Virus record (IMG/VR): IMGVR_UViG_3300009378_000016
Coordinates: 1-45,154 of that record
From: a virus
Direction: 5' to 3' (one strand)
Length of the DNA stretch: 45,154 bases
Part shown: positions 2,097-43,228 of the stretch, in pieces
Numbering within the stretch: position 1 is the first letter of the stretch
How the letters are laid out: each line of letters starts with the position of its first letter
Program-made: the position numbers and the translations under genes
Notes under the pieces: model-generated
What the model was told of the DNA's origin: nothing
What the model saw: only the letters and a program-made list of their open reading frames with translations
Database searches by the model: none

Positions 2097-2114
2097 TATA
2101 TTTGGAGGTTGTTT

Positions 2115-4505
2115 ATGCCCGAAATTGATAATAGTTTTTCATATATTAGAAACTTTGGTGAATTAAATATATCTGATGTTTCTTTGGTTGGTGGTAAGAA
2201 TGCATCATTAGGTGAAATGTATTCTGAACTTACCAATTCTGGTATTAATGTGCCTAATGGGTTCGCGGTTACTGTTGATGGGTATTGTGATTATGTAGAT
2301 TATAATCACTTATCATCTAAAATTGAGGATATATTAGAAACTATTGATGTCGATGATGTGGATTCCTTATCTGATGTGGGTACAACCATTAGATCTTGGT
2401 TTATTAATGGTGATATGCCACCAGGATTAGAATCTGAGATATTAACATCATATCACGAATTAGGTGGTTCTGTTGCCGTTAGATCCTCGGCTACTACTGA
2501 AGATTCAATATCAAATTCATTTGCCGGACAATTAGAAACATATCTTAATGTATTTGGAGATGTGGATATAATACATGCGTGTAAATTAGTATTTGCTTCA
2601 TTATTTACTGATAGAGTTATATCATATAGAGTATCTAATGGATATTCTCATAAAGATATAAGAGTGTCAATAGGTATTCAAAAAATGGTGCGTTCCGATA
2701 GAGGTACCGCTGGTGTTATGTTTACATTGGATACTGAATCAGGATTTGAGGATGTAGTATTTATTACTGGTGCATATGGGTTAGGTGAAAATGTAGTATC
2801 TGGTAATGTCAACCCCGATGAGTTTTATGTATTTAAACCAACATTGAAAGATGGTTATAATTCTATTATACAACGACATCTTGGTACTAAATTAGTCAAA
2901 ATGATATATTCTGAGTCTAATAGAACAAATAATATAGAAGTTGATAAATCATTACAACAAGAATTTTGTTTATCGGATGAGGAAGTTATATCATTAGCCA
3001 GATCAGCAGTAATCATAGAAGAACATTATTCTAAGAAATATGGTAAAAAAACTCATATGGACATAGAATGGGCAATTGATGGTTTAACCAATGAAATCTT
3101 TATAGTTCAATCACGTCCAGAAACAGTCCATTCTGTGGATTCTGGGTGTGCTGACGAGGTGTTTACACTTCAACGTATGTCAGATGTGATTACTACAGGT
3201 AAACCTATTGGTTCTAAAATTGGATCTGGTAAAACATCTATAATTAATGATGTGTCGGATATGAATCAATTTAATGATGGTGATATATTGGTAACTGATA
3301 TAACAGACCCAGATTGGGAACCAATAATGAAGAAATCTTCTGGTGTCATTACTAATAGAGGGGGGAGAACTTGTCATGCTGCTATTATAGCAAGAGAATT
3401 AGGTATCCCAGCAGTGGTGGGGTGTGATGATGCCACTTCTACCATAGCTAATGGCGAAGATGTAACAATATCTTGTGCCCAAGGTGAAATTGGGTATGTT
3501 TATAATGGAATATTACCATATACTACAGAAAAAACTGATTTTTCATCATTCAAACCAACAAAAACTAAAATAATGCTTAATCTGGGTAATCCTGATATGG
3601 CATTCAAAGTGTCAAAATATCCAAATGATGGTATCGGACTGGCCAGATTAGAATTTATTATTAATTCACGTATCGGTATACACCCAAATGCAATACTTAA
3701 TTGTGAACTCTTATCTGATGAGATGTATGACTATATAATGGAAAAAACAATTGGGTATTCACGACCAACAGAGTTTTATCGAAGTAGACTAGCAGATGGT
3801 ATTGCCACTATTGCTGCTTCAGTATACCCTAAACCGGTTATATTTAGACTATCTGACTTCAAATCTAATGAATACTCTCATTTATATGGTGGACAACTCT
3901 ATGAACCAATAGAAGAAAATCCTATGATTGGGTTTAGAGGTGCATATAGATACAATTCACCTGAATTTGAAGTTGCATTTGAGTTGGAATGCTCTGCGAT
4001 AAGAAAGGTTATCCTAGAATATGGATTAAATAATATACAAGTTATGGTTCCTTTTATCAGAACTGTAAATGAGGCAAAAAAAGTAGTACAATTATTAGAA
4101 GATAATGGTATAAAATCAGGGGAAAATGGTATTAAAATCATATTTATGTGTGAAATACCAGCAAATGCACTATTGGCGGATGAGTTCTTAGAATATTGTG
4201 ATGGTTTCTCTATAGGTTCTAATGATTTGACTCAATTAACACTTGGTGTTGACAGAGATTCTTCTAATATTGAAGGATGTGACGAAAGGAATGAAGCAGT
4301 GATTAAATTAATGGAAATGGCAATAAAATCATGTAAAAAACATGGTAAGTATATAGGTATTTGTGGACAAGCACCATCAGATTTTCCAGAAATAACTTCG
4401 TGGTTAGTTAATCAAGGGATTGATTCTCTATCACTTAACTATGACTCTATTTTAACAATGAATAATGTTATTAGATCAGTAGAATCAGAAATATTTGAAA
4501 TATAG
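2115..4505 (+). CDS. ppsA: phosphoenolpyruvate synthase (pyruvate, water dikinase)
   Basis: PpsA converts pyruvate, ATP and water to phosphoenolpyruvate, AMP and phosphate (EC 2.7.9.2), the entry step to gluconeogenesis. The 796-residue product is the length of the bacterial enzyme (about 790) and aligns along its whole length with the E. coli protein as I remember it. The N-terminal ATP-grasp domain starts with VGGKNASLGEM and has the VRSSATTED segment. The swivelling phospho-histidine domain has GGRTCHAAIIARELGIPAVV with catalytic H421. The C-terminal PEP/pyruvate domain has IGSNDLTQL and ICGQAPSD with the acid/base Cys near residue 750. ATG 2115 is chosen because GGAGG lies 6 bp upstream; an in-frame TTG at 2109 is less likely. 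It lies 9 bp upstream of ftsH. A phage copy could raise PEP supply for nucleotide or cell-wall precursors, or reverse glycolytic flux; this role is inference. Confidence 0.96.
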   Translation: MPEIDNSFSYIRNFGELNISDVSLVGGKNASLGEMYSELTNSGINVPNGFAVTVDGYCDYVDYNHLSSKIEDILETIDVDDVDSLSDVGTTIRSWFINGDMPPGLESEILTSYHELGGSVAVRSSATTEDSISNSFAGQLETYLNVFGDVDIIHACKLVFASLFTDRVISYRVSNGYSHKDIRVSIGIQKMVRSDRGTAGVMFTLDTESGFEDVVFITGAYGLGENVVSGNVNPDEFYVFKPTLKDGYNSIIQRHLGTKLVKMIYSESNRTNNIEVDKSLQQEFCLSDEEVISLARSAVIIEEHYSKKYGKKTHMDIEWAIDGLTNEIFIVQSRPETVHSVDSGCADEVFTLQRMSDVITTGKPIGSKIGSGKTSIINDVSDMNQFNDGDILVTDITDPDWEPIMKKSSGVITNRGGRTCHAAIIARELGIPAVVGCDDATSTIANGEDVTISCAQGEIGYVYNGILPYTTEKTDFSSFKPTKTKIMLNLGNPDMAFKVSKYPNDGIGLARLEFIINSRIGIHPNAILNCELLSDEMYDYIMEKTIGYSRPTEFYRSRLADGIATIAASVYPKPVIFRLSDFKSNEYSHLYGGQLYEPIEENPMIGFRGAYRYNSPEFEVAFELECSAIRKVILEYGLNNIQVMVPFIRTVNEAKKVVQLLEDNGIKSGENGIKIIFMCEIPANALLADEFLEYCDGFSIGSNDLTQLTLGVDRDSSNIEGCDERNEAVIKLMEMAIKSCKKHGKYIGICGQAPSDFPEITSWLVNQGIDSLSLNYDSILTMNNVIRSVESEIFEI

Positions 4506-4514
4506 GATAAGACT

Positions 4515-6326
4515 ATGATAAAAAAACTATTAGTTTGGGCCGTTATTGGATTTTTCTTTATTTCATTCTTAGGGAATATGAATAAAGGACAAATGGGTCA
4601 AGAGGTGTCATATGCTAAATTCATAGATTTAGTGAATGATGGGCAAGTAATGAAAGTTGTAGTAGATAAGAGAGGAATTGTTGTTGGTGAATATCGTGAT
4701 GGTGGACAGTTTGTAACATATTCACCATATGATCCTCATATGGTGGATGATTTATTAGAAAATGGTGTAGATATTATTGCAAATCCACCAGAAGAATCAT
4801 CACTTTTGGGTTCTATATTTATTTCTTGGTTTCCTATATTATTATTGATAGGTGTGTGGATATGGTATATGAAAAGAATGGGGGGTGGAGGACCAAATAA
4901 ATTGGGGAAGAATAAATCTAAGAAATTAGAACAATCAAAAATTAAAGTTACCTTTGCCGATGTTGCAGGGGTGGAAGAAGCACTTGATGAAGTGTCTGAA
5001 ATGGTAGATTTCTTAAGAAATCCTCCCAAATATGTGAAATTAGGTGCGAAAATACCTAAAGGGGCATTAATGGTTGGACCTCCAGGTACAGGTAAAACAT
5101 TATTGGCTCGTGCAATTGCAGGTGAAGCAAAAGTACCATTCTTTTCTATATCTGGATCTGATTTTGTGGAAATGTTTGTTGGTGTCGGTGCATCTAGAGT
5201 TAGAGATATGTTTACTGAGGCAAGAAAATCGTCACCTTGTATTATATTCATTGACGAAATCGATGCAGTTGGTAGACAAAGAGGTGCAGGCCACGGTGGC
5301 GGCAATGATGAAAGAGAACAAACATTAAATCAATTATTAGTGGAAATGGATGGTTTCGATGATAGAGATGGTATTATTGTATTAGGTGCAACCAATAGAG
5401 CAGATGTATTAGATAAAGCTTTATTAAGACCAGGAAGATTTGATCGAGAAATTAATGTAGGACTACCTGATATTAAAGGAAGAGAACAAATACTTCAAGT
5501 TCATATGAGAAAAGTTCCAACTTCCGATGATATTAAATTAAAATATATTGCTCAAGGTACTACTGGATTCTCTGGTGCAGAATTAGCTAATCTTATTAAT
5601 GAAGCTGCCCTTGCTGCTGCCAGAGGGGATAGAACTAATATTTGTATGTCAGATTTAGAAAAATCTAAAGATAAACTGATTATGGGGGTAGAAAAGAGAA
5701 CTATGGTGATGGGGGAAGATGAAAAACGTATGACTGCATATCATGAAGCAGGACACGCTATCGTAGGTAGATTAACAGAAACTCATGACCCAGTATATAA
5801 AGTGTCTATTATGCCTAGAGGTAGAGCACTTGGGGTTACTATGTTCCTACCAGAGAAAGACGCTTATTCTGCATCAAAGGAAAAATTAGAATCTCAACTA
5901 CAATCATTATATGGTGGACGTATCGCAGAAGAATTAATATACGGTAAAGATAAAGTTACTACTGGTGCATCTAATGATATTGAACGTGCTACTTCTATTG
6001 CTAGAAATATGGTCAAACGATGGGGATTATGTGACGCAGTAGGACCACTTTGTTATGAAGATGAACAGGGAGATCCCTTTATGGGGAGATCAATGGGACA
6101 ACCCGCTCAATCCGTTTCACCTGAAATATCTAAACTATTAGATGAGGAAGTTATTAAATTAACTACTAAAAATTATGATAAAGCTAAGAAAATACTTGAA
6201 GATAATATGGATATTCTACATTCTATGACTGAATGCTTAATGGAATATGAAACTATTGATAAATATCAACTCGACGATTTATTAGAAAGAAAAGACACTA
6301 TTAGAGAACCAATGGGGTATGACTAA
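4515..6326 (+). CDS. ftsH: ATP-dependent zinc metalloprotease FtsH
   Basis: FtsH is a hexameric inner-membrane AAA+ protease that extracts and degrades membrane proteins and short-lived cytosolic regulators. At 603 aa this is full length. Two membrane segments (about residues 4-20 and 97-119) flank a periplasmic domain. They are followed by Walker A GPPGTGKT (188-195), pore loop FVG (221-223), Walker B IIFIDEID (243-250) and the second region of homology with arginine fingers (GATNRAD...RPGRFDR, 291-311). The zinc site is HEAGH (410-414) with a third ligand Asp near 488 (GASNDIE). All catalytic elements are present, so an active enzyme is expected. An AGGATAAG site precedes the ATG. The gene lies between ppsA and a thioesterase. 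Possible roles are removing host membrane or regulatory proteins, or phage-protein quality control; these are inferences. Confidence 0.96.
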
Positions 6327-6341
6327 TAAAGGAGAATCAAA

Positions 6342-6842
6342 ATGGATAACCCAATATCAACTACTATTGTTGTTTCGCCGTCACCACAACAGGCAAATTT
6401 TAATAATAAACTGCATGGGGGAGAACTACTAAAATTATTAGATCAAGTCGCTTCCGCTACGTCTAGAAGATTTTCTAGACTATACTGTATTACCGCTAAA
6501 GTTATTGAAGTACAATACCTTGAACCTATAGATATTGGTTGCCTTCTATCTATTAGAGGAGAAGTTATTAAAGTAGGCAGAACTTCTATGACTATAGATA
6601 TTGTAGCAGTTACTGAAAATATTGAAACTTCGGCTCAAGTGAGATGTATTACCGCACAATTCCTTATGGTAGGGGTAGACGCTAATAAAGTACCTACACC
6701 AGTTCCTAAAATACCAGAACACCATAAAGATAAATGTAAATCATGCGGGCACGTGAAACATAATGTTAATGATAATTGGTTTAATCCTAAAATGAATAAC
6801 CATTATTCTCAATATTTTGAGGAAACTGAAGACAGAGACTAA
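6342..6842 (+). CDS. hotdog-fold acyl-CoA thioesterase (YciA/BACH type)
   Basis: The 166-residue product begins with a 4HBT-type hotdog domain (about 1-115). The helix signature NKLHGGELLKLLDQ (residues 22-35) carries the conserved HGG and catalytic Asp34. A VGRTSM segment follows (78-83), typical of YciA/BACH acyl-CoA thioesterases, which hydrolyse acyl-CoA to free fatty acid and CoA. The C-terminal tail (about 120-166) is not part of the hotdog fold and contains CKSCGH with several nearby His (HHKDKCKSCGHVKH), a possible metal-binding hook. A good GGAG ribosome site precedes the ATG, 15 bp after ftsH. In infection it could alter CoA or fatty-acid pools and thus membranes; this is inference. 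The substrate chain length is unknown. Confidence 0.85.
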   Translation: MDNPISTTIVVSPSPQQANFNNKLHGGELLKLLDQVASATSRRFSRLYCITAKVIEVQYLEPIDIGCLLSIRGEVIKVGRTSMTIDIVAVTENIETSAQVRCITAQFLMVGVDANKVPTPVPKIPEHHKDKCKSCGHVKHNVNDNWFNPKMNNHYSQYFEETEDRD

Positions 6843-10283: not shown

Positions 10284-10319
10284 ATAATTATGGCGTTAGC
10301 GTCTGAAAGGAGTAAGGGA

Positions 10320-10832
10320 ATGAAGAAAGTTAGATTAATTACGAATTATGGTGATGTGGTTATAGAGTTGGACACTGAGTCTGCCCCAGTAACCTGTGAG
10401 AATTTCTTAAGTTATTGTACGGAGAATTTCTATGATGGTACAATATTTCATAGAGTAATTCCCGGATTCATGGCACAAGGTGGGGGATTTGATCCTATGG
10501 TCAATGACAATATGTTACAGAAACCAGTAAAATCCCCTATACTAAATGAGGCTGACAATGGATTATCGAATGAAAGGGGAACGATTGCCATGGCAAGGAC
10601 AGGAGTCCCCCATTCAGCAACTGCTCAGTTTTTCATAAATTATGCAGATAATGGTTTTCTGAATCATACTGAGAAAACTCAACAGGGTTGGGGATATGCT
10701 GTATTTGGAAAAGTTATAGAGGGGATGGATATAGTAGATTCTATGTCAGATGCCGAGACACAAACTATAGGTGGTCATCAGAATGTTCCAGTAAATGATA
10801 TTATAATAGAGAGTACAGAAATTATACCATGA
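10320..10832 (+). CDS. ppiB: cyclophilin-type peptidyl-prolyl cis-trans isomerase
   Basis: The enzyme catalyses cis-trans isomerisation of X-Pro bonds and helps proteins fold. The 170-residue product is the size of cytoplasmic E. coli PpiB (164 aa). It keeps the family core: [15 protein letters not shown] with the catalytic Arg, GTIAMART, the [11 protein letters not shown] segment, and [18 protein letters not shown]. There is no signal peptide, so it acts in the cytoplasm. ATG 10320 is preferred over the in-frame ATG 10290 because AGGAG lies 7 bp upstream and homologues begin there. It follows the structured RNA and tandem repeats, which may regulate it. It could assist folding of large virion proteins; this is inference. 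Confidence 0.95.
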
Positions 10833-10842
10833 TTGGGGAGTA

Positions 10843-11334
10843 ATGAAAATGAATGATTTATTAAAGTTATTAAAGAAATTCGGAATAGATATAGTAGTAC
10901 GATTAGGGATGATATTTTGTGGAATACTATGGATACTCTGTATATTGTATATATTAGGAGTAGTTGGAAATGCGGTAGCAGATGACAAAGTAGTCGGACA
11001 AGAAAACATAAATCAATCAATCTATGAAACGGCAGAGCAGTTAATGACGTGTTCATCAGCTATCCGAAATACATGGTCAGTATATGATACAATAAAGGAT
11101 GAGAAATCAGGAAAGGAAATAAAGGTTCATTCAGTTGCCGATGATCTCCGAATATATTCCTCGGCACTATACAAGGAAGTAAATCCGCAGATAACGGATG
11201 ATCATTTAGATAAGATATTGGGTATACGGAATACTATTTTCGCCACTCAGTTGACTCCATCAGAGAGGTCTGAGATAGTAGAAGAATGTATTGAGTTATT
11301 AGATACCTTACAGGGAGTGACGGATGGAGTTTGA
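10843..11334 (+). CDS. single-pass membrane protein (163 aa), hypothetical
   Basis: The 163-residue product has a short basic amphipathic N-terminus (LLKLLKKFGIDIVVRLG), one membrane segment at about residues 19-42, and a mainly helical, charged C-terminal domain of about 115 residues. The N-in/C-out or reverse topology cannot be fixed. It starts 10 bp after the cyclophilin gene, with GGGGAG upstream. No family is recognised. Its stop overlaps the next small gene. Confidence 0.6.
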   Translation: MKMNDLLKLLKKFGIDIVVRLGMIFCGILWILCILYILGVVGNAVADDKVVGQENINQSIYETAEQLMTCSSAIRNTWSVYDTIKDEKSGKEIKVHSVADDLRIYSSALYKEVNPQITDDHLDKILGIRNTIFATQLTPSERSEIVEECIELLDTLQGVTDGV

Positions 11335-11494
11335 TAAATGGGAAAGTCTACATAGGAAATTACTTATAAATCATTTTAAAACATACGATAAAGATGTTGT
11401 TGAGACAGATGAGACTTATAGGAGTTGGGCTGAACTAAGATGGAAGGATAGTCAGAGTACTATGAAAAGGAAAGGTATTATTCCTGATCGGTAA
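11324..11494 (+). CDS. small charged protein (56 aa), hypothetical
   Basis: ATG 11324 overlaps the end of the upstream gene by 11 bp and opens 56 codons ending in TAA 11492-11494. The product (starting MEFDKWESLHRKLLINHF) is rich in charged and aromatic residues and has a basic C-terminus (MKRKGIIPDR). A GGGAG lies about 8 bp before the ATG (11313-11317). The last codons fall in the first copy of a 15-bp direct repeat. It closes the rightward operon. No family is recognised. Confidence 0.5.
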   Translation: MEFDKWESLHRKLLINHFKTYDKDVVETDETYRSWAELRWKDSQSTMKRKGIIPDR

Positions 11495-11580
11495 TAATAT
11501 TGGAAATATCTTAATATATTAGTGAATTATTCCTGATCGGGAATATTATTCCCGTGTAATAATATTGAGAATATCCTTCA
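11477..11580. repeat. duplicated segment at the convergent operon junction
   Basis: ATTATTCCTGATCGG occurs at 11477-11491 and again at 11526-11540. A second shared block, TAATAATATTG followed by a near-identical GAATATC-like stretch, follows the first copy at once (11492 onward). After the second copy it comes only after a 16-bp hairpin-forming insertion (11557 onward). The first copy encodes the end of the 56-aa protein. The second lies at the 3' end of the opposing hydrolase gene. Confidence 0.7.
11538..11554. terminator. perfect hairpin at the convergent gene junction
   Basis: CGGGAAT (11538-11544), loop ATT, ATTCCCG (11548-11554): a 7-bp perfect stem with a 3-nt loop. It lies between two converging operons, where a bidirectional terminator would be expected, and covers the stop codon of the hydrolase gene (11546-11548 on the - strand). 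The flanks are A/T-rich but lack a long pure T-tract, so termination strength is uncertain. Confidence 0.5.
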
Positions 11581-12412
11581 TAATTAATTTATTTGAATTA
11601 AGGAGAAGGTGATATGAATTATTATATTTTATAGTATGAGTATATGGGAGATCCGTTTCCCAATCATTAAGTATTGGGAGGTCGTTGTCAGGATATAGAA
11701 TATGTATATTCTCATCACCTCCCAATTTCATAATAATATTGAACCCTGATTCCATAATATTGATAGAGTGGTAAAGTGTATTAGAATTAATATAATGTCT
11801 AATGAGTTTATCATTGTATCTTATCTCAGTTTGTTCGGTGGAATTAGATACTTTAAATTGTGGTAATAAGTCATAGTATATATTAAAATTAAATGTCTTG
11901 AGAATATATTTGAACGGTGAATATACATAGTGGTGTTTTATGATACCTGGAGAAATAAGAATTACAGTAGGATTTCTACCAGTTTTATTATGTATATATT
12001 TTTTTAATTTCACATAATTATGAAGTATAATTGCTGCCCCCATAGAATTACCTATAAGGGTTATGTGTGTGTTTGGGTAAGATTGAATTACATAATCGAT
12101 TTTATTGAGTAGTTGTTTATTCCATGCATCTATACCGACATTTTTTTCAATATTTTCCCCGAATCCATTAATATCATATGACAATAGATTTACATTATCA
12201 TTAGATAGGAATGATTGTAGATTGGAGAAAGTTGAAGAATGTTCGGAGATACCATGTACAGAAATAACCGTGTGTCCAGTTTGTTCTCCAGTAAATATAG
12301 AAAATGTTGACAGTGTTCTAGAATCTGTATTGTAATAATTTTTTTTATCTTCTTTGGCAATAACATTAGTTAACAACACAGACACCAAAATCAGTACTGA
12401 CAAAGAATTCAT
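11546..12412 (-). CDS. exported alpha/beta hydrolase (lipase/esterase-like)
   Basis: The 288-residue product starts with a clear signal peptide (about residues 1-19, ending VIA before KEDKK) and no lipobox Cys, so it should be released into the periplasm. The alpha/beta-hydrolase fold is indicated by VHGISEHSS (residues 52-60, oxyanion region), the nucleophile elbow GNSMG (121-125, Ser123), an acidic residue at D242 or D244 (YPDNDLP) and a late His268 (NSYHLLL), in the correct order. The N-terminal VHGISEHSSTF pattern recalls monoacylglycerol lipase/lysophospholipase-type enzymes. It is the last gene of the leftward virion operon, 3 bp after the gp29-like gene. An envelope lipid substrate and a lysis or entry role are plausible but inferred. 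Confidence 0.8.
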   Translation of the reverse strand: MNSLSVLILVSVLLTNVIAKEDKKNYYNTDSRTLSTFSIFTGEQTGHTVISVHGISEHSSTFSNLQSFLSNDNVNLLSYDINGFGENIEKNVGIDAWNKQLLNKIDYVIQSYPNTHITLIGNSMGAAIILHNYVKLKKYIHNKTGRNPTVILISPGIIKHHYVYSPFKYILKTFNFNIYYDLLPQFKVSNSTEQTEIRYNDKLIRHYINSNTLYHSINIMESGFNIIMKLGGDENIHILYPDNDLPILNDWETDLPYTHTIKYNNSYHLLLNSNKLIMKDILNIITRE

Positions 12413-12415
12413 TAA

Positions 12416-14980
12416 TTAAAACGCACCGCGTAATCCTTTGTTAGCTTGGTTAAACGAATTTTTAGAAGTATCTATTATATTGGTAATGTTTTGTTTAGAA
12501 TTATTTACATTACTAGTTGGTGCATTAATTATACTGTCTTTAGATTCCTTTTTATTTTTATCTTCGTATTTAAATTTTTCATTGTTTAATTCATTTTGTT
12601 TCAATGCATTATTTTGATTATTGATGGGGTTGTCATATGGTTTAATTTTATCTGATTCAGATGTAGTCAATCCTGTTAAATTAGTTAATGCTCCCAATGG
12701 GGTGTAATCATAAGCTTTACTTGACAGCTCTCCAAGTTTATCTATAGTGCTTTCGTTTTCATATGGTTTTTTTCCTAATTCGTTTCTACCGGTGAACATA
12801 TGTGAGTCGAGTTTAGCTGCATTATTTTCTAATGTATTTTCAGTAAGTAAATCCATTTTAGAATCTAATTCTCTACCAGTAGATTTCGTTAAACCAAGAT
12901 ATTCCATTTCTTTTTGTGTTTGTGTTATATCATTTTCCCGCCTATCGTTTTCGTCATCATCTTTATGACCGACTATTCTATTTCTTTCTGATTCTTTAGC
13001 TTTTACTATTTGTCTATCTGCTTTATGAATATCATCTTGTAGTTTCTTTTTTTCTTTTTGAAGTTTAGGGTCTTTAAATTCTTCAACTCCGTCTAAACCT
13101 AACATGTCGGTGATTTCATTTGATTTTATAACTTTTTCAGCATTAATATTTTCTTTTTCTAAAGTATCTAATTTTTGTTGTGCTGTTTCTTTTTTTTCTT
13201 TACCTTCTTGATAATCTATTGCATTTTTATTTTTTGGATCTGCTATCATTTTAAGAGATTTAAGTGTTTCTGCATCCCAATCGTCATACTCTATTAATGC
13301 TTGTAAGTCTTCTGGTTTTAATTGTTTAATGGCATCCCAATTTAATATAGTAGAATTTCCTATTACATCATGGTCTACTATGCCTTGTTCATCTAATGTA
13401 TCCATTATTTCTTTAGATTCATCAGAACCTCTCATATGATCCCATAAGGCATAACCACCTGCTCCTAGTGCGGCAGCTCCTAATACCGCTGCTCCTATTG
13501 GGTTTGCAGCTGCTAGAGTACCTACTGTTGACATAGCACCAGATGCCATACCACCTAATGCGGTTGCTCCAGAAGATAATGCAGTACCTGCGGTGCCCGC
13601 CATACCGGCAAGACTAGACCCCATAGACCCCATACTAGGTATCATTGTTGCCATTTTACCTACAGAACCTACTTTGCTGCCTATATTTGCGGCAGTACTT
13701 CCTATATTACCAATATTCCCCTTTAGAACATTTGAAATACCACCCCTTTTAAAAAGGTTACCCATGTCACCTAGTTTTTTACCTACTACTTCACCTAGTC
13801 CCTCTTCAAGAATTTCTTCTATAAAACTACCTTCTCCATCTCCACTGTTAGTTTTTATATCATTACCATCATTTAATAATGATACGACTTCGCTTAGATT
13901 TTCATTTATTTTAATTAGTTCATCTTGTTGTTGTTCTTGAGTTCTACTAATTTCTCTAGATTCTTCTATAGATTGATTTTCGTCATCCATACTTGTTGGG
14001 AATATTGATGTTACCTTATCATTATCTGTTTCTGTATTAGATGTTACATTATCTGTTTCTGTGTTAGATGTTACATTATCATTATCTGTTTCTGTATTAG
14101 ATGTTACATTATCTGTTTCTGTATTAGATGTTTCTGTGTTAGATGTTATATTATCATTATTTGTTACGGTGTTAGATGTTACATTATCATTGTCATTCAT
14201 TCCGTATTTTTTTCTTATAGAATCTTCTTCTTGTTTTATTTCTTCATTTTGTTCTTTTATTTTTTTATTTTGAGACGATTGTTCTATAATAGAATCTTTT
14301 AATGAATTTAAATACTCTTCATATGTTGTATTGTTTTCTGTTGCTTTATTTTGTATGTCATTTTCAGTGAGATTAAATTTTTCCTTTACGTCTTGTTCAG
14401 ATACTTGTGTTCTTAAGAATTCGAATTCTTTCGATTTTAATTCTTCATGTTGTTTTATTCTAGATTCTTGTTCTTTTCTTTCACGTTCATTTTCGACATT
14501 TTCTTTAATTCTGTCTGTTACTTTATCTTGAATAAATCCCGCAGCTAAACCAAATGCGGGTGAACCTGTTACTGCCATTACAGCACCAGATATATCAGCA
14601 TTTAATCCTTTATCTGCGATTTCATCTTTTTTATTTGATACGATATTTTTAATTTTAGAAGCAAGTGTTGTGTTGTCTTCAACTATAGTACTTTGTTCTG
14701 ATATGGCGCTTCTAAATGTGTTTTTCTCTGATTCATTAAGTGAATTTGATTTGACTATGGAACTATTTAAATTAGTTAATTTATTATTTAATTTGTTTAG
14801 TCCTTTTTGAGATTTTGTGTCAGATTTATCTATAATATCTTCTAATTCTTTGAGAAAGAATTTTCCAGAGTCTGAGTCTATATTATTTTGTATTTTTAAT
14901 AACTTATCTTGTAAGGAGAGTAATAACTTATCCGTATTTTCTTCTTGTAATCTACCAGTTATATCATTTAATGTAGTCAT
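12416..14980 (-). CDS. gp29-like tape-measure / baseplate hub protein
   Basis: The 854-residue product lies in a gp26-gp54-gp4 neighbourhood. Residues 1-260 are charged and strongly helical (coiled-coil-like). Residues about 264-325 are a low-complexity Asn/Thr/Ser/Asp repeat (units like NVTSNTETDN). Residues about 410-517 are Gly/Ala-rich and hydrophobic, with a possible membrane-inserting helix near 490-516 (NPIGAAVLGAAALGAGGYAL). A charged helical region and a flexible Asn-rich C-terminus follow. T4 gp29 (590 aa) has the same order of helical N-terminus, hydrophobic centre, charged C-terminal part and Asn-rich tail. Tape-measure proteins set tail length and help DNA entry. Sequence identity to T4 gp29 is not obvious, so this call rests on architecture and context. 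Confidence 0.6.
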   Translation of the reverse strand: MTTLNDITGRLQEENTDKLLLSLQDKLLKIQNNIDSDSGKFFLKELEDIIDKSDTKSQKGLNKLNNKLTNLNSSIVKSNSLNESEKNTFRSAISEQSTIVEDNTTLASKIKNIVSNKKDEIADKGLNADISGAVMAVTGSPAFGLAAGFIQDKVTDRIKENVENERERKEQESRIKQHEELKSKEFEFLRTQVSEQDVKEKFNLTENDIQNKATENNTTYEEYLNSLKDSIIEQSSQNKKIKEQNEEIKQEEDSIRKKYGMNDNDNVTSNTVTNNDNITSNTETSNTETDNVTSNTETDNDNVTSNTETDNVTSNTETDNDKVTSIFPTSMDDENQSIEESREISRTQEQQQDELIKINENLSEVVSLLNDGNDIKTNSGDGEGSFIEEILEEGLGEVVGKKLGDMGNLFKRGGISNVLKGNIGNIGSTAANIGSKVGSVGKMATMIPSMGSMGSSLAGMAGTAGTALSSGATALGGMASGAMSTVGTLAAANPIGAAVLGAAALGAGGYALWDHMRGSDESKEIMDTLDEQGIVDHDVIGNSTILNWDAIKQLKPEDLQALIEYDDWDAETLKSLKMIADPKNKNAIDYQEGKEKKETAQQKLDTLEKENINAEKVIKSNEITDMLGLDGVEEFKDPKLQKEKKKLQDDIHKADRQIVKAKESERNRIVGHKDDDENDRRENDITQTQKEMEYLGLTKSTGRELDSKMDLLTENTLENNAAKLDSHMFTGRNELGKKPYENESTIDKLGELSSKAYDYTPLGALTNLTGLTTSESDKIKPYDNPINNQNNALKQNELNNEKFKYEDKNKKESKDSIINAPTSNVNNSKQNITNIIDTSKNSFNQANKGLRGAF
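14005..14190 (-). repeat. in-frame Asn/Thr-rich coding repeat in the gp29-like gene
   Basis: On the + strand this stretch repeats units built from ATTATCTGTTTCTGTATTAG and GATGTTACATT. On the coding strand they give NVTSNTETDN and SNTETDND-type peptides. At least five imperfect copies are visible. Unit length is a multiple of three, so copy-number change would alter protein length without a frameshift. Confidence 0.8.
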
Positions 14981-14991
14981 ATGTTATCTCT

Positions 14992-15216
14992 TTATTTTTT
15001 ATTGCCTGATCCGATGTATAGTCCAAACCAAGCTGCACCTATACCAGTAATTACTGATATAAGTGTAGTCTGTTCTGGAGTTGGTGCATTCAACGACATA
15101 AACCATTGAATTGCATCATATAACAATATCATATAAACAGATATAAATATTCTTGGGAATATTCTAAGTGAATCTATTGACTTTGATATCTCTATTATTT
15201 TAGTTGGTATATTCAT
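14992..15216 (-). CDS. two-helix small membrane protein, holin-like
   Basis: The 74-residue product has two hydrophobic segments, about residues 23-43 (FISVYMILLYDAIQWFMSL) and 51-68 (LISVITGIGAAWFGLYI), and ends in GSGNKK. The motif pair LRIFPRIF and TGIGAAWFGLYI resembles a small membrane protein common in marine phages and sometimes annotated as a holin. Its ATG overlaps the stop of the upstream 42-codon gene (ATGA), so the two are coupled. It sits just before the gp29-like gene. Holin function is plausible from size and topology but not shown. Confidence 0.65.
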   Translation of the reverse strand: MNIPTKIIEISKSIDSLRIFPRIFISVYMILLYDAIQWFMSLNAPTPEQTTLISVITGIGAAWFGLYIGSGNKK

Positions 15217-15391: not shown

Positions 15392-16102
15392 TTATACGAA
15401 AAAATCAGTAATGCCTGTAATTTTTATGTCTTTATTAAAGTCACAACTTTGACATTTTATATTTGTATTAAATTCTGTTGTTGGTATATTATCAAAAAAA
15501 CGGTATATATCTTTAATTTGTTTTGATGTTAATGCTTCCAAAAAGTCAATAATATCATCATGAGTATAATCTACCGATTCGTGTTTTGTATTTCCATCAG
15601 TGATATAGTCTATAGATTTGGCAAGTATATTGATATCAGAAATGATATTATTAGTTACGTCTATACTTTCTAATGTATTAAACGTTGGGTATCTTAGTGC
15701 GACAGAGATATCATCATTAATTTTGATGATATTATTTGTGTTATTATTTTCTATAGTTACCTTATCTAAGTCAACATTAAATTTTATTTGTTTTTGATCT
15801 TCATTATTTGGACAATCGTGTTCATAATTTAAAATAATTATATTACCTACTGATTTTGAACGTAATTGAATGAATATATATTCTATGTCAAATGTAGATA
15901 GGTTATTTACATTTATATTTGACAGTATGCAGTTTTCAATTATTTGTTTTATAGTTTCAATATTATCTACAATTGAATCGGTCTCTTTTGCCATTAATAA
16001 CAATTTTTCTTCTTTTACTAGAAATGGTCTATATTTTATTGGTTTGTTAGTAGATGGTATTATTAATTTATATGTCGGTGTTACTATAGTAGGTAAAGTC
16101 AT
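15392..16102 (-). CDS. gp26: gp26-like baseplate hub subunit
   Basis: The 236-residue product begins with LPTIVTPTYKLIIPST, then KYRPFLVKEEKLLLMA and FDIEYIFIQLRSKSVG. These are hallmarks of the T4-type baseplate hub family (gp26, Pfam T4_baseplate). A C-terminal CQSCDF-type pair (two Cys) and an earlier CPNN may form a metal site, as also seen in homologues. The protein belongs to the central hub of the baseplate. AAGGAT precedes the ATG on the - strand. It lies between the gp54-like gene and the gp51-position small gene, which fits a hub operon. Confidence 0.88.
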   Translation of the reverse strand: MTLPTIVTPTYKLIIPSTNKPIKYRPFLVKEEKLLLMAKETDSIVDNIETIKQIIENCILSNINVNNLSTFDIEYIFIQLRSKSVGNIIILNYEHDCPNNEDQKQIKFNVDLDKVTIENNNTNNIIKINDDISVALRYPTFNTLESIDVTNNIISDINILAKSIDYITDGNTKHESVDYTHDDIIDFLEALTSKQIKDIYRFFDNIPTTEFNTNIKCQSCDFNKDIKITGITDFFV

Positions 16103-16179
16103 AATTATTTTTTATCCTTGTTGTTTAATTGATATTATTGTTTTCAATGAATAGGTTTTAAATCTAAATCTGCCACTAT

Positions 16180-16857
16180 TTAATCAGGTATATGTGCATC
16201 TTGGTTTTGTGCATCTTGTTTTTGTGGAGTTGCTTTATTATTTACTTCAGAAATGATCTTTCCGGAACGAGACTTATTAACTTTATTATGTGTAGATGTT
16301 GAGTTAACTGGAATTTTTATCCACTTCCTATATGCAAATGTTATTGGTATTGTACTTGCCTCTGCATTGGAATAGGAGTATGAAATTTCTCCTATTCCTG
16401 TAGGATATGCATCTACGAATTTAACTATATGTATTTTTTCATTCTGATTGTTAAGTGTGGTGACCCATATTTCAGTAACATAATCATCGAAATATCTTAA
16501 TTTTGATGAATTGTAATTATATATATAGTCCATCCAATCTGAAATTATATTACGTTCAATCATGTTTTGTGATAATAGTATATTAACTTGAAGATCTTCA
16601 TATGTCATTGCATATGGTATTTTTTTAAATGGTCCGTAATGTTTCACTTCTTTTGTTGAGAGAGATTTTCCTGGTAATTCGAATGAGTCTATGCGTAATG
16701 ACATATGACGTATATCTTCACGGTAACTGAATAGTGGAGATGATATTTCTTCGGACAGTGATCCTTTTGGAGCAATAGTTATGGTATATCTGTTAGAAAA
16801 CGATAGACCAGAACGATTGATATTTGACCTAAAGTTAGTTATAGAGAAATCTGACAT
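16180..16857 (-). CDS. gp54: gp54-like baseplate tail-tube initiator (tube-fold protein)
   Basis: The 225-residue product has the tail-tube/gp19-like fold signature. An early NRYTITIAPKG strand is followed by SFELPGKSL (residues 58-66) and a late AYPTGIGEISYSYSNAEAST segment that parallels WPTNVGELQLDWDSN of T4 gp19. It ends with a β-strand ITFAYRKW. gp54, gp48 and gp19 share this fold. Because gp48 is assigned to 17927-18820, gp54 is the best remaining choice; gp19 is less likely in this position. gp54 caps the hub and starts tube polymerisation. The C-terminal ~35 residues are low-complexity (Lys/Gln/Asp). AAAGG precedes the start. Confidence 0.7.
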   Translation of the reverse strand: MSDFSITNFRSNINRSGLSFSNRYTITIAPKGSLSEEISSPLFSYREDIRHMSLRIDSFELPGKSLSTKEVKHYGPFKKIPYAMTYEDLQVNILLSQNMIERNIISDWMDYIYNYNSSKLRYFDDYVTEIWVTTLNNQNEKIHIVKFVDAYPTGIGEISYSYSNAEASTIPITFAYRKWIKIPVNSTSTHNKVNKSRSGKIISEVNNKATPQKQDAQNQDAHIPD

Positions 16858-16868
16858 TATGTTTACCT

Positions 16869-17432
16869 TTAATTTCTATTCCATATTTTTGATGGAGATG
16901 ATTTTTTAAATTTCTGTACTGGTAGAAAGATTGCAATATCCCATTCGTTTGCGTCTATTTGCATAAAGTTGCTTCTAACATGACTAACCAGATACCGCTT
17001 TAAGCAGGGTTTTATTATATTATATTTAGATATCTTTTGTAATACCGAATAAGATAAAGCTAACTTTGCATTTTTCCCATACCGTTTGTCGTTCACAATT
17101 GTTGATAGTGATTCCATAATCAAAAGTCTGTCCCTCGGAGAAACGTAGTGGAGGTTTATCCCCAAGAACCCTCCCTTATTTATCTCAACGACAAATATTA
17201 GTGGGAACTCGTCGTAATAGGGTAGGGTTTTAGCGTGCTTGGGGTTATAGTAGTAACAATACATTTTCCCTACAGTTATTCTTGACGAAAACCGATCCTT
17301 GTCCATCATTAACGACTTTCTGTTTATTCCAGATTGTCTTACTTTTTTTCTAAACCACTCGCGTGACTTAGTTGTGTTCGCCTTTATACCCGTTGAAGAC
17401 AGGCGGTTGAGTAGTTGTTTAAAATTTTGCAT
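16869..17432 (-). CDS. conserved T4-like protein in gp2 position (possible DNA end protector)
   Basis: The 187-residue basic protein contains KMYCYYYNPKHAKTLPYYD, then FPLIFVVEINKGGFLGINLH, and ends NEWDIAIFLPVQKFKKSS. This pattern (Tyr-rich strand, YYDxFPL, GFLGxNLHY, FLPVQxF) belongs to a protein conserved in marine T4-like phages. In T4, gene 2 (DNA end protector, head completion) adjoins gene 4; here it is directly downstream of gp4, its ATG sharing a base with the gp4 stop (TAATG). A gp2-like role is therefore reasonable, but I cannot confirm homology to T4 gp2 from memory of its sequence. Confidence 0.7.
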   Translation of the reverse strand: MQNFKQLLNRLSSTGIKANTTKSREWFRKKVRQSGINRKSLMMDKDRFSSRITVGKMYCYYYNPKHAKTLPYYDEFPLIFVVEINKGGFLGINLHYVSPRDRLLIMESLSTIVNDKRYGKNAKLALSYSVLQKISKYNIIKPCLKRYLVSHVRSNFMQIDANEWDIAIFLPVQKFKKSSPSKIWNRN

Positions 17433-17863
17433 TATAATATATGTTCTTCAGTTAAAATTTTGAATTCCCAGTTTTTCTTTGCACAGTACTTAAGGGCGTG
17501 TTTCCATTTGGAAGTATTTATTGTCCATGTTCTTATTTCGGACAAGTATGTAGTATTTTTTTTCCTACCCTTCTCTGGTCTTTTTGTTTGACTTGACGGT
17601 TTTATTTCTATCATTATTATTTTTGTTGATTTTTTAGATTTTACTTTTATGATAAAATCTGGGTAGTACCTGTGATATTTATTGTCTATGGGTGAGACAT
17701 AAGGTACATATAATTCCTCTGATGACCATTCAATTATTGATGAGTTGGTATCACAATATTTCATAAATCTTCTTTCCCATGATGAACGGTAAATTATATT
17801 GGTAATATCACCAATGTATTTTTGTTTGTTATGTGGTATATATCTACCTTTGTGGTATTTCAT
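17432..17863 (-). CDS. gp4: gp4-like head completion protein (nuclease fold)
   Basis: The 143-residue product (T4 gp4: 150) is needed to complete DNA-filled heads before tails attach. It shows a PD-(D/E)XK nuclease-like set in order: E30 in SSWERRFMKYCD, D69 in YYPDF, and E86/K88 in MIEIKP. The N-terminal KYHKGRYIPHNKQKYIGD is typical of the family. It is the first gene of the leftward late operon, immediately behind the - strand late promoter (17904-17911). Nuclease activity of gp4 homologues is inferred from fold. Confidence 0.88.
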   Translation of the reverse strand: MKYHKGRYIPHNKQKYIGDITNIIYRSSWERRFMKYCDTNSSIIEWSSEELYVPYVSPIDNKYHRYYPDFIIKVKSKKSTKIIMIEIKPSSQTKRPEKGRKKNTTYLSEIRTWTINTSKWKHALKYCAKKNWEFKILTEEHIL

Positions 17864-17876
17864 AACAGTTATGACT

Positions 17877-17884
17877 TATAAATA
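17877..17884 (+). promoter_or_regulatory. T4-type late promoter, rightward
   Basis: TATAAATA on the + strand, 43 bp upstream of the gp48 ATG, in the 63-bp gap between divergent late operons. It is an exact match to the T4 late octamer. Transcription would begin about 17890 and run through the tail operon. Confidence 0.75.
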
Positions 17885-17903
17885 ATAATAATATTCATAA
17901 TTA

Positions 17904-17911
17904 TATTTATA
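17904..17911 (-). promoter_or_regulatory. T4-type late promoter, leftward
   Basis: TATTTATA on the + strand is TATAAATA on the - strand, 41 bp upstream of the gp4 start. It faces the rightward octamer at 17877, so the two predicted start sites (about 17890 and 17898) lie between the octamers and the 5' ends of the two transcripts would overlap by a few bases. Confidence 0.7.
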
Positions 17912-17926
17912 AAACGGACACATAAG

Positions 17927-18820
17927 ATGCCAGGAACTAATAATGATAAGCCAGAACATGTCATCCATCAATCTCAAGAAAAAAGGAATGTCGACCTTTT
18001 AAGGTATCCAGAAACAATAGGGAGTCCTCATACACCTGATGATGGTTTAGAACAGATTCGTGTTTGGTTGGAGTTTAAAGACTCGGTCGAAAGCCAGTAT
18101 GAGAAATATGCTGGTAAAAAAAGAACACAGTGGATTGATAAGGGAGATGATATATCATTAGGAATAACAAAATCTGCATTAAAGAGTAACATTGCTGTTC
18201 ATTTATATATCCCTCCCGTGATAAATGTAAATGGTGGGGTCAATTGGGGAGAATCTGAGTTTTCTGGTAGTTTTGGTGCCGCGAGGACTAATAAACATGG
18301 TGATTTTGGGGGTTCGGTTGACGCTATGGAAGGAAAAGCAAGGCTCATGGTGGGACAATCTTTCGATAGCGATGAAGCTGGTACTGATTTTCAGAAAAAA
18401 CATGGGGTGATACAAAATATGAACAAACAGTTATTATTTGAAGGTGTGGGCATGAGAACATTTGAGTTTGAGTTTGAGTTTGTACCTAAAAGTAAAAATG
18501 AGGCAGAAGTAGTTTATAAAATTGTTAAGTGGTTTCGTGCTAGAATGTATCCTAATTTTGATAATGTTTGGTATACAGTACCAGATTCAATATCTATAAG
18601 CTTTAAATCACCCGGTAGTATAGATAACGGTCTAGAGAAATTGCCCAGGATTAAAGATTCGGTTATAACTTCGTGTAATATAACATATGGTTCTGATGGT
18701 GTATTTGGTATAATGGAGGGTGATACAGAATACCCCTATAGCACTATCATGACATTATCGGTACAAGAACTTGAAATAATTACGTCAGATGATGTAATGG
18801 GTGAAGACGGGGGTTATTAA
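17927..18820 (+). CDS. gp48: gp48-like baseplate tail-tube cap protein
   Basis: gp48 sits with gp54 on top of the baseplate hub where the tail tube starts. The 297-residue product (T4: 364) matches in the C-terminal half. MRTFEFEFEFVPKSKNEAE and WFRARMYP correspond to the T4 FTWDLTPRS region. The closing CNITYGSDG...STIMTLSVQELEIIT parallels the T4 end (IQSIRFDKT...TFTLEITMREIITLNR). The N-terminal part is diverged and Gly/Ser-rich in the middle (about 95-140). It is the first gene of the rightward late operon. The next gene starts on its stop codon. Confidence 0.75.
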   Translation: MPGTNNDKPEHVIHQSQEKRNVDLLRYPETIGSPHTPDDGLEQIRVWLEFKDSVESQYEKYAGKKRTQWIDKGDDISLGITKSALKSNIAVHLYIPPVINVNGGVNWGESEFSGSFGAARTNKHGDFGGSVDAMEGKARLMVGQSFDSDEAGTDFQKKHGVIQNMNKQLLFEGVGMRTFEFEFEFVPKSKNEAEVVYKIVKWFRARMYPNFDNVWYTVPDSISISFKSPGSIDNGLEKLPRIKDSVITSCNITYGSDGVFGIMEGDTEYPYSTIMTLSVQELEIITSDDVMGEDGGY

Positions 18821-19413: not shown

Positions 19414-20658
19414 ATGACAACTCCCAACATTAAATTTAATGCTTATACGTTTTGGGCATTTGACTTGATATCATATGATTCATCTACAATTTATGATTTA
19501 AAAGAATGGTTTAAGGAGGTAAGAATATATGAAAGTATGTTTACATCTTCTATGCATGCTGATATCATCATACAAGATCCTGAGAATATGTTAGTTACAT
19601 TACCAATAGTAGGGCAGGAGACGGTGAATATATGGCTACAGTCAGAACTTAATAGTGCTGAAATTTTAAAGTTGAGTATGAAGGTGTATTCTGTAACTGA
19701 TATAAAATCAGTTAACGAGTCTATAGAATATGTGTTGCAGTTGGTTACTACTGACTTTACTATGAATTTTGAAGAAAAGATATCAAGACATGTATCTGGA
19801 TATGGAAGTTCTATCGCAAGTGATATATTTAACGAAAGTGATATTGATTCAAATAAATTTATATCAGTTGAGCAAAGTATGGACGAACATGATTTAGTGA
19901 TACCTAATATGACTCCCTTTAGGTGTATAAATTGGTTGTCTTCTAGGTGTCATAATGATACTAGTACATCTTATGTATTTTTTGAGAACAATCGTGAATA
20001 TATGTTTAAGTCAATTGAATCATTTTTCTATGAGAGTATTAAATATAAATATCGGGGTTCTGGTAAGAATATTAATAGCTATGGAACTATGAAGAAACAA
20101 GAAGAAGAAAATAGGTCATTAATATCATATAAAGTTATATCCAGATTTAATGTTATAGATAATATAACCAAGGGTATGTATGCATCTGGTGTTATGAGTT
20201 GTGATGTTGTACATAGAAAGGTTAAGAAAACAACACATTCGTGGTATGAAGATTCTGAGAAGTATCAAGTTAAAAAAAGAGAAATAAAGAGTCGGTTATA
20301 CCCATTAATGAGTAAGAATCCAAACGTTATGTTGAAATATTATCCTGATAATGTTATGTTAGTTCCACACAATCAGTTAAATAAATATAATATATCAGAT
20401 AATATTTTAAAATATAATTATGGTAATCAGTTATTTGATAATTTAAAGATGAATATAGAAGTTTCCGGTAATACTTCACTAGCTGTTGGTGACTTATTAG
20501 AAATAGAAATTCCGGTAAAACGTCCTGGAAATGAGGTTGTTCGTGATGAAATTTATGCTGGTAAGTGGTTGATTATAAACATAACACATATAATAACTAG
20601 AGATTCATATATTATGAGTATTGATGTAGCTAAAGACAGAATAGGATTAAATTTATAA
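19414..20658 (+). CDS. gp27: gp27-like baseplate hub protein
   Basis: In T4 a gp27 trimer forms the cylinder that joins gp5 to the tube. The 414-residue product (T4: 391) sits immediately upstream of gp5. The MHADIIIQDPENMLVTLPI stretch and the VIPNMTPFRCINWLSSRCHN segment (about residues 165-184), followed by SYVFFENNREYMFKSIESF, match hub proteins of T4-like marine phages. The last third, with SLAVGDLLEIEIP and RDEIYAGKWLIINITH, is typical of the second tube-like domain of hub proteins. Its stop shares a base with the gp5 start. Confidence 0.82.
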   Translation: MTTPNIKFNAYTFWAFDLISYDSSTIYDLKEWFKEVRIYESMFTSSMHADIIIQDPENMLVTLPIVGQETVNIWLQSELNSAEILKLSMKVYSVTDIKSVNESIEYVLQLVTTDFTMNFEEKISRHVSGYGSSIASDIFNESDIDSNKFISVEQSMDEHDLVIPNMTPFRCINWLSSRCHNDTSTSYVFFENNREYMFKSIESFFYESIKYKYRGSGKNINSYGTMKKQEEENRSLISYKVISRFNVIDNITKGMYASGVMSCDVVHRKVKKTTHSWYEDSEKYQVKKREIKSRLYPLMSKNPNVMLKYYPDNVMLVPHNQLNKYNISDNILKYNYGNQLFDNLKMNIEVSGNTSLAVGDLLEIEIPVKRPGNEVVRDEIYAGKWLIINITHIITRDSYIMSIDVAKDRIGLNL

Positions 20659-21938
20659 TGAATTCTTATATGGGTATGGATAATTTCATATGGTTTCATG
20701 GTATTGTTGAAGATACAGATGATCCATTAATGATTGGTAGGTGTCGTGTACGTGTTATTGGATTACATACTGATAATCGTTCTATTTTGCCAACTGATAA
20801 GTTACCATGGGCGAGTCCTATGATGCCAATAACATCGGCATCAATTGGTGGTATTGGTATATCTCCAACTGGTATTATGTTGGGTTCGTGGGTTGTTGGA
20901 TTTTTCAGAGATGGTGAGAGTGCCCAAGACCCAATAATGATGGGTACTATTCCTGGAATACCGTCTGGACCAGATGAGGATGAATTGGATTATGGTGATC
21001 CAAATTTAGATGGATATCCATATAAAGAAGAAACGTCACAATATAATAGTGTTATTAATGAATCCGATGTTAATAGGTTAGCTAGAGGGGCGACTACTAA
21101 AAAGGTTTTTACGACTAAAATAGAATTAATAGAATATTTTAAAAATATACATGATGGTTTAGGATTTGATTCTCCACTGTTATCGATATTTAACGACTTG
21201 ACTATGAATGATTTGTTTATTGATGACCTTATGAAGTTATTGCATGATAATAAAGATATTAATGACTTGATATTGAGTAATGCATTGGGTAGGCATGACG
21301 AGTCAAGTGTTAGTATAGTGACACTGATGACATCATCTGATAATATGTCCACCGAGGATTTAAGGGAGTTATTATCAAATGATGTACTTTCAGATATACT
21401 TACCACAGTATTGGCGGGTAAGTTAAAGGATGCTGAATTATTATTAGATCTTTTTATGTCATTTGAGAAGTGGGATTGGGTTATTGAAGAAGAGACAACT
21501 GTATCGGAAACTGAAGTTTCCGTTGATACTATAGTAACAAATAAAAAATCATCAGTTATTAATAATTCTTTATTTTCAGAACCACCAACTAAATACGCTC
21601 CTACCTATCCTGATAATAAAGTATTAAGCACTGAGTCAGGTCATCATCAAGAGTTTGATGATACTCGAGGTGCTGAAAGGATTCATACTTATCATAAGAG
21701 TGGTTCTTTTGAAGAATATCATCCAAATGGTGATAGAGTAACTAAAATAGTTGGTAATGACTATGAAATAGTATATGGTAATAAGAATTTACATGTTTCT
21801 GGTAATCTTAATATATATGTTAATGGTTCTGTTAAAATAAAAGTAAACGGATCGTGGGATGCAAAGGTTGGTGGGTCACATACAACTAACAGCGGTGGGA
21901 ATATGAAAAAAACTGCACCGAAAATCAATTTAAACTAG
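20658..21938 (+). CDS. gp5: gp5-like hub/spike protein lacking a lysozyme domain
   Basis: gp5 forms the membrane-piercing spike. The 426-residue product has an N-terminal OB domain (about 8-108, with VEDTDDPLMIGRCRVRVIG and WVVGFFRDGESAQDPIMMG). A helical region follows (about 135-285). The C-terminal β-helix (about 320-426) starts at SGHHQEFDDTRGAERIHTYH and ends in short repeats such as VNGSVKIKVNGSW. In T4 the middle carries lysozyme; here no lysozyme catalytic pattern is seen, and the region is an Asp/Leu-rich helical segment with no recognised fold. The spike may thus act mechanically only, or use another activity. The start overlaps the gp27 stop. Confidence 0.87.
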   Translation: MNSYMGMDNFIWFHGIVEDTDDPLMIGRCRVRVIGLHTDNRSILPTDKLPWASPMMPITSASIGGIGISPTGIMLGSWVVGFFRDGESAQDPIMMGTIPGIPSGPDEDELDYGDPNLDGYPYKEETSQYNSVINESDVNRLARGATTKKVFTTKIELIEYFKNIHDGLGFDSPLLSIFNDLTMNDLFIDDLMKLLHDNKDINDLILSNALGRHDESSVSIVTLMTSSDNMSTEDLRELLSNDVLSDILTTVLAGKLKDAELLLDLFMSFEKWDWVIEEETTVSETEVSVDTIVTNKKSSVINNSLFSEPPTKYAPTYPDNKVLSTESGHHQEFDDTRGAERIHTYHKSGSFEEYHPNGDRVTKIVGNDYEIVYGNKNLHVSGNLNIYVNGSVKIKVNGSWDAKVGGSHTTNSGGNMKKTAPKINLN

Positions 21939-43207: not shown

Positions 43208-43228
43208 TTTAAATTAACGAGAAATATT

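Follow-up and report, generated by a model that had tools for sequence, protein, structure and literature searches.

A predicted lipolytic alpha/beta hydrolase at the end of the tail operon in a T4-like phage lineage with beta-oxidation genes

The hydrolase gene and its operon

The window, by which we mean the whole 45,154-nucleotide stretch of viral DNA analysed here, contains an open reading frame at 11546-12412 that was confirmed as 288 codons from ATG to TAA on the minus strand, the plus-strand reading being ruled out by its many stops. It is the last gene of an operon that runs in one direction through gp4, gp2, the tail tube, the hub, a small membrane protein and a tape-measure-like gene, and the features at and around it are as follows.

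10290-10832: cyclophilin-type peptidyl-prolyl isomerase, phage-encoded, in the insertion beside the hydrolase
10843-11334, plus strand: gene for a membrane protein, convergent with the hydrolase and by synteny within the insertion
11546-12412, minus strand: alpha/beta hydrolase gene, 288 aa, Hydrolase_4 (monoglyceride-lipase/lysophospholipase type), from Pfam, PDB and same-site homologues
11609-11611, minus strand: H268 codon, predicted catalytic histidine, invariant
11681-11689, minus strand: D242 and D244 codons, candidate catalytic acid, invariant
12044-12046, minus strand: S123 codon, predicted nucleophile (GNSMG), invariant, opposite the nucleophile motif (smG) of human monoglyceride lipase in the alignment
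12356-12412, minus strand: codons 1-19, a short hydrophobic stretch at the N-terminus (signal-like or membrane anchor), not conserved in sequence
12416-14980, minus strand: tape-measure-like tail gene, 854 aa (phrog_1533), ending 3 nt before the hydrolase start
14992-15216, minus strand: small membrane protein, 74 aa, conserved, in the same operon as the hydrolase (phrog_10198)
15392-17863, minus strand: upstream operon genes for baseplate hub, tail tube, gp2 DNA end protector and gp4 head closure (phrog_150, 45, 429, 218)
17904-17911, minus strand: T4-type late promoter motif TATAAATA of the hydrolase operon, upstream of gp4

The promoter motif is present on both strands of the 63-bp gap between gp4 and a divergent baseplate gene (17863-17927), where 0.017 sites are expected from its frequency in the window; the divergent twin starts at 17877 on the plus strand. 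The operon-side copy is conserved in the related loci L002, L003 and L005, and the late co-activator gp33 is encoded within the window. The preliminary description of this locus had placed the gene at the end of a virion operon expressed late in infection, and both parts are supported, by synteny and by the conserved motif that precedes gp4 on the operon strand. A search of 10800-12600, an interval that takes in the space between the convergent genes, found no intrinsic terminator. The length of the tape-measure-like gene is hypervariable, running from 854 to 1437 aa in close relatives, and the gene includes an Asn/Thr/Asp-rich low-complexity stretch. We also note that Pfam shows an OB domain only, with no lysozyme domain found, in the gp5 baseplate hub at 20658-21938.

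The hydrolase matches the Pfam family Hydrolase_4 (PF12146) at 7.2e-16, with 58.7 bits against a cut-off of 27, and Abhydrolase_1 at 5e-6, likewise above the curated cut-off. Its best PDB matches, which are weak and cover the N-terminal half only, are to a bacterial alpha/beta hydrolase (2.2e-5) and then to human monoglyceride lipases (~1e-4), so that the lipolytic type first assigned to the protein is borne out. The sole result of an NCBIfam search was a MenH match far under its cut-off, and an AlphaFold (AF2) model built with 7 sequences has a mean pLDDT of 46.5, too poor for any judgement of the substrate pocket. A search for homologues at the same site had been named as a check on the gene, and the nine related loci found in IMG/VR all lie at that site in related phages. 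Among isolate phages a single weak match and no close relative was recovered, and a pattern-based scan of genome contigs gave no close cellular homologue.

Across 7 aligned homologues S123 (in GNSMG), D242, D244 and H268 are invariant, as is the HG oxyanion motif at H53-G54, and the Ser-Asp-His order originally proposed therefore stands. Since the Pfam match stops at residue 221, the C-terminal Asp and His were placed by motif; of the two acids, D244 appears the likelier catalytic residue from its position after the strand ILY. The HG motif, the GxSMG nucleophile and the order and spacing of Asp and His are shared with human monoglyceride lipase (MGL; 3HJU/3JW8) and with the marine enzyme GnMgl, for which a hydrophobic N-terminus or membrane association, another point of likeness, has also been reported. 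Within the same superfamily, an MGL from a marine bacterium is a predicted membrane protein whose nearest characterised enzyme is human MGL (PMC6989442). The phage protein differs from the MGL branch in having GNSMG rather than GHSMG or C(A/S)HSMG, in its weak profile scores and want of a close cellular relative in our scan, and in being phage-encoded within a tail operon. We predict a serine hydrolase, and infer a substrate of the monoacylglycerol-lipase/lysophospholipase type.

Residues 48-288 have pairwise dN/dS values of 0.10-0.30, and this purifying selection indicates that the protein is maintained and is neither a chance ORF nor a relic. Between N-terminal types, residues 1-47 are 32-37% identical, with a synonymous divergence of 0.6-0.9, whereas the core is 91-98% identical in the same pairs; the core has thus probably been swapped by recombination from one phage lineage to another, the break lying near codon 47.

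The N-terminus itself is reliably placed, as the start follows the tape-measure-like stop by between 3 nt (window) and 11 nt (L003). It was inspected for the features of a Sec signal, namely a basic n-region, a hydrophobic core and a conserved cleavage site. A hydrophobic stretch of about 15 residues is retained in all full-length homologues despite sequence divergence, with zero Lys or Arg ahead of it in three N-terminal types, and where the window protein has V-I-A, L002 has VVV and L004 lacks the site. A conserved KK just after the stretch favours a cytoplasmic catalytic domain. The signal peptide originally described is consequently not confirmed, and a periplasmic location is not supported as a fact; export is possible, and a membrane-associated hydrolase with a cytoplasmic domain would fit equally well. 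Two further secreted-looking proteins of a related 115-kb contig, described below, begin with MKK.

A lineage-specific insertion before gp32

Eighty loci around gp2 were compared, with the window's own lineage defined by gp2 at least 82% identical to that of the window; sister phages have 58-63% identity. The hydrolase is present in all 11 own-lineage contigs that reach the slot (the window plus L002-L010 and L157) and absent from all 27 sister contigs that show both the tape-measure-like gene and gp32, in which the end of the operon and gp32 face each other, either directly or with a few small ORFs in between. This gene order identifies a lineage-specific insertion, placed between the tape-measure-like gene and gp32, that consists of the hydrolase, the convergent membrane protein gene and the cyclophilin gene. 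The marine T4-like Pelagibacter phage HTVC008M has the same block of gp2, tube, hub and tape measure on one strand, followed by cargo before gp32, but its slot holds curli and cyclase genes and no hydrolase, and its annotated endolysins lie elsewhere.

The 115-kb contig (IMGVR_UViG_3300028198_000256, pieces L013-L018, hereafter G001) carries the hydrolase at the same site, at 20016-20852 on the plus strand. Between the window and G001 the synonymous divergence (dS) of the hydrolase is 0.29 and that of phosphoenolpyruvate (PEP) synthase, FtsH and the thioesterase is 0.22-0.35; most core genes range from 0.7 to saturation, with gp59, gp32, hub, tube and gp2 at 1.0 to 2.4.

Genes for fatty-acid oxidation in the same lineage

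Two metabolic genes lie within the window.

2109-4505, plus strand: phosphoenolpyruvate synthase (NF005057 and TIGR01418 above cut-off)
6342-6842, plus strand: 4HBT acyl-CoA thioesterase-like gene (PF03061, 4.7e-14)

Their products are 96% and 98% identical, respectively, to the counterparts in G001, which extends the set considerably. G001 encodes a class-3 lipase (Lipase_3), a FadE of 707 aa (53657-55780; NF007000, far above cut-off), a FadJ-like hydratase/dehydrogenase (71466-73463), a thiolase (73467-74771; NF006030, above cut-off), an isocitrate lyase (ICL; 95334-96611; NF011645, above cut-off), a malate dehydrogenase (NF003916, above cut-off), a CitE/malyl-CoA-lyase-like protein, and, at 89062-91344 (L017:9062-11344), an acyltransferase domain (PF01553) fused to a second Hydrolase_4 domain, a fusion conserved in G004 and G005. 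FadE, the FadJ-like protein, thiolase and isocitrate lyase together would make up a full beta-oxidation cycle and the first glyoxylate-shunt enzyme, and thiolase, FadJ, ICL and PEP synthase all have their active-site motifs. Most of this beta-oxidation and glyoxylate set is retained in the sister contigs to G001, namely G003, G004, G005 and G010, with the motifs of thiolase, FadJ and, where covered, ICL intact. The phage-encoded beta-oxidation set is a more surprising find than the hydrolase itself.

Several observations tie these genes to the hydrolase. The rest of a lipid-catabolism pathway, as would be expected around an auxiliary metabolic gene, is found in the same genome in G001; on a second contig of 15 kb (L007/L148) the hydrolase is joined to malate dehydrogenase (97% identical); and FadE and an above-cut-off Hydrolase_4 protein each occur in hydrolase-lineage records and in none of 12 sister records, which include three of 135-204 kb. 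The FadE-bearing contigs G004, G005 and G010 contain no hydrolase homologue, but the slot is apparently not covered there. The window's own genome presumably carries the pathway genes beyond its ends, the genes themselves being seen in relatives. The T4 core genes gp32, gp33, gp59, gp41, gp43, UvsX, gp2, gp4, gp5 and gp6 lie on the same contigs, and bacterial contamination is unlikely given such replication and structural genes. FadE and FadJ matches in isolate phages were set aside as bacterial DNA, coming mostly from 'Acinetobacter phage MD-2021a' records with ordinary bacterial gene sets and from tiny unannotated contigs; Lipase_3 matches in isolate phages are distant.

No acyl-CoA synthetase (AMP-ligase) was found in 19 related records, all of them fragments, and activation by such an enzyme would thus have to be the host's. 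No malate synthase scored above cut-off; a malyl-CoA-lyase-like step is known in some bacteria and could stand in for it. Class-3 lipase domains are found as well in sister phages that have no FadE (G020, 74185-74550; G021, 103718-104080), which indicates that lipases in this group need not serve beta-oxidation and have a wider use. We also note that PEP synthase (2109-4505) stands beside a full-length FtsH protease with AAA and M41 domains (4515-6326). The nearest relatives of the phage FtsH are gammaproteobacterial FtsH proteins (identity up to 65%); as a host marker the phage protein would point to Gammaproteobacteria in general only, and it argues against mycobacteria.

Fatty-acid oxidation by marine viruses has been deduced from reads of viromes and from gene catalogues of whole communities (PMC4053976, PMC11360552). 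Hurwitz et al. (2013) proposed fatty-acid oxidation and a glyoxylate shunt during infection from viral fadB, fadL and aceAB signals; their data were virome reads, with fadL alone of the fatty-acid genes validated by linkage (PMC4053976), whereas FadE, the FadJ-like protein, thiolase, ICL, malate dehydrogenase and the hydrolase are here linked on T4-like phage contigs. Complete pathways in a 2024 ocean catalogue are likewise aggregated signals and not those of a single virus (PMC11360552). The T4-like environmental genome TARA_ERS478052_N000008 has an aceBA operon with malate synthase, as well as LPS genes (PMC5332604), and shares with the present contigs T4-like structural genes and isocitrate lyase; it differs in that ICL here accompanies a CitE/malyl-CoA-lyase-like protein and beta-oxidation genes, with no malate synthase above cut-off. 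Our searches of the open-access literature found no report of the steps of viral fatty-acid oxidation linked in one phage genome. The contigs described here tie these steps to T4-like phage genes and define a lineage, a gene set and a synteny for testing.

Possible roles of the hydrolase

The reading we favour, with slightly less than even confidence, is that an enzyme of the monoacylglycerol-lipase/lysophospholipase type frees fatty acids during infection for a metabolic purpose. Located at or near the host membrane, the hydrolase would cleave acyl-glycerol or lysophospholipid esters late in infection, and would either release fatty acids from them or complete the work of the class-3 lipase on mono-acyl products. 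The freed fatty acids could then pass to the FadE, FadJ-like protein and thiolase of the same phage lineage, and from there to isocitrate lyase, the malyl-CoA-lyase-like protein, malate dehydrogenase and PEP synthase. The side of the membrane on which the enzyme acts and the use made of its product are what we infer in this scheme. With a monoacylglycerol-lipase-like enzyme, a class-3 lipase and beta-oxidation in one lineage, fatty-acid supply is the simplest reading; it is held back by the class-3 lipases of sisters that have no FadE, and by the position of the hydrolase among late tail genes, in an operon that it shares with no metabolic gene. Should the hydrolase supply fatty acids, an abundant kind of marine phage would be able to exploit host lipids, and this would bear on viral carbon flux and on the coordination of lysis with membrane-lipid turnover. 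A broader proposal, which we regard as somewhat doubtful, is that this marine T4-like lineage makes a fat-burning, sugar-making virocell, in which lipases strip acyl chains from the host and the phage pathway turns them into energy and nucleotide precursors; the late timing of the hydrolase would then mean that host membrane lipid is consumed as lysis nears.

The preliminary description had instead likened the protein to mycobacteriophage LysB, largely because no classical endolysin was visible. This is literally true of what was scanned, and is an artefact of the 45-kb window being a fragment: a Peptidase_M15_3 endolysin is present in three relatives, G001, G003 and G004, and a lysis factor argued from the absence of an endolysin is thereby ruled out. 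In G001 the endolysin lies at 43.3-43.8 kb on the minus strand, about 22.6 kb from the hydrolase and in another gene cluster. LysB is a mycolylarabinogalactan esterase encoded beside LysA. The phage hydrolase resembles it as an alpha/beta hydrolase esterase for which a late role has been proposed, but belongs to a different family and is neither in nor next to a lysis cassette in G001; the 27 sister phages with an empty slot indicate, moreover, that it does not belong to the lysis machinery standard in the group, and the LysB-like interpretation is not upheld. No spanin was identified in any piece, in searches that used no dedicated spanin profile, and the HTVC008M endolysins used as queries gave no match. 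An exported or anchored hydrolase might still degrade inner- or outer-membrane lipids and aid lysis or virion release beside the conventional endolysin. The late promoter motif, a predicted co-transcription with tail genes in which the hydrolase starts 3-11 nt past the tape-measure-like stop, the small membrane protein in the operon and the hydrophobic segment kept through sequence divergence all agree with such a role, which we nevertheless consider unlikely given the distant, oppositely oriented endolysin, the empty slot of the sisters, and a weak, unconserved signal followed by KK. As G001 has a fatty-acid-burning set together with an ordinary endolysin, it is more likely that the hydrolase frees fatty acids from host lipids than that it bursts the cell, and since late degradation of membrane lipid could serve both ends, fatty-acid supply and a late envelope role are not mutually exclusive.

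The breadth of Hydrolase_4 and Abhydrolase_1, the MenH match far below cut-off and the weak, N-terminal PDB matches would also suit a small-molecule or acyl-ester esterase apart from lipid mobilisation, acting on a thioester, methyl ester or cofactor precursor as general cargo; we think this distinctly unlikely, as the solved enzymes that match best are monoglyceride lipases and lipid enzymes abound in the genomic surroundings. Modification of the envelope for superinfection exclusion, for example by deacylating a surface lipid or glycan, would accord with late, lineage-specific cargo whose core recombines between phage lineages near codon 47, and seems improbable in that exclusion genes are usually early, export is no more than possible and nothing in the sequence points directly to such a role. 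A virion component or tail-assembly factor translated right after the tape-measure-like gene, as position and tight spacing might suggest, is very improbable for a protein missing at this position from all sister phages with the same tail operon and having an intact catalytic triad under selection.

Apart from the hydrolase, G001 contains a candidate lysis cluster at 42640-43830, where the M15 endolysin lies near a protein of 146 aa with one C-terminal membrane segment that is conserved in G010.
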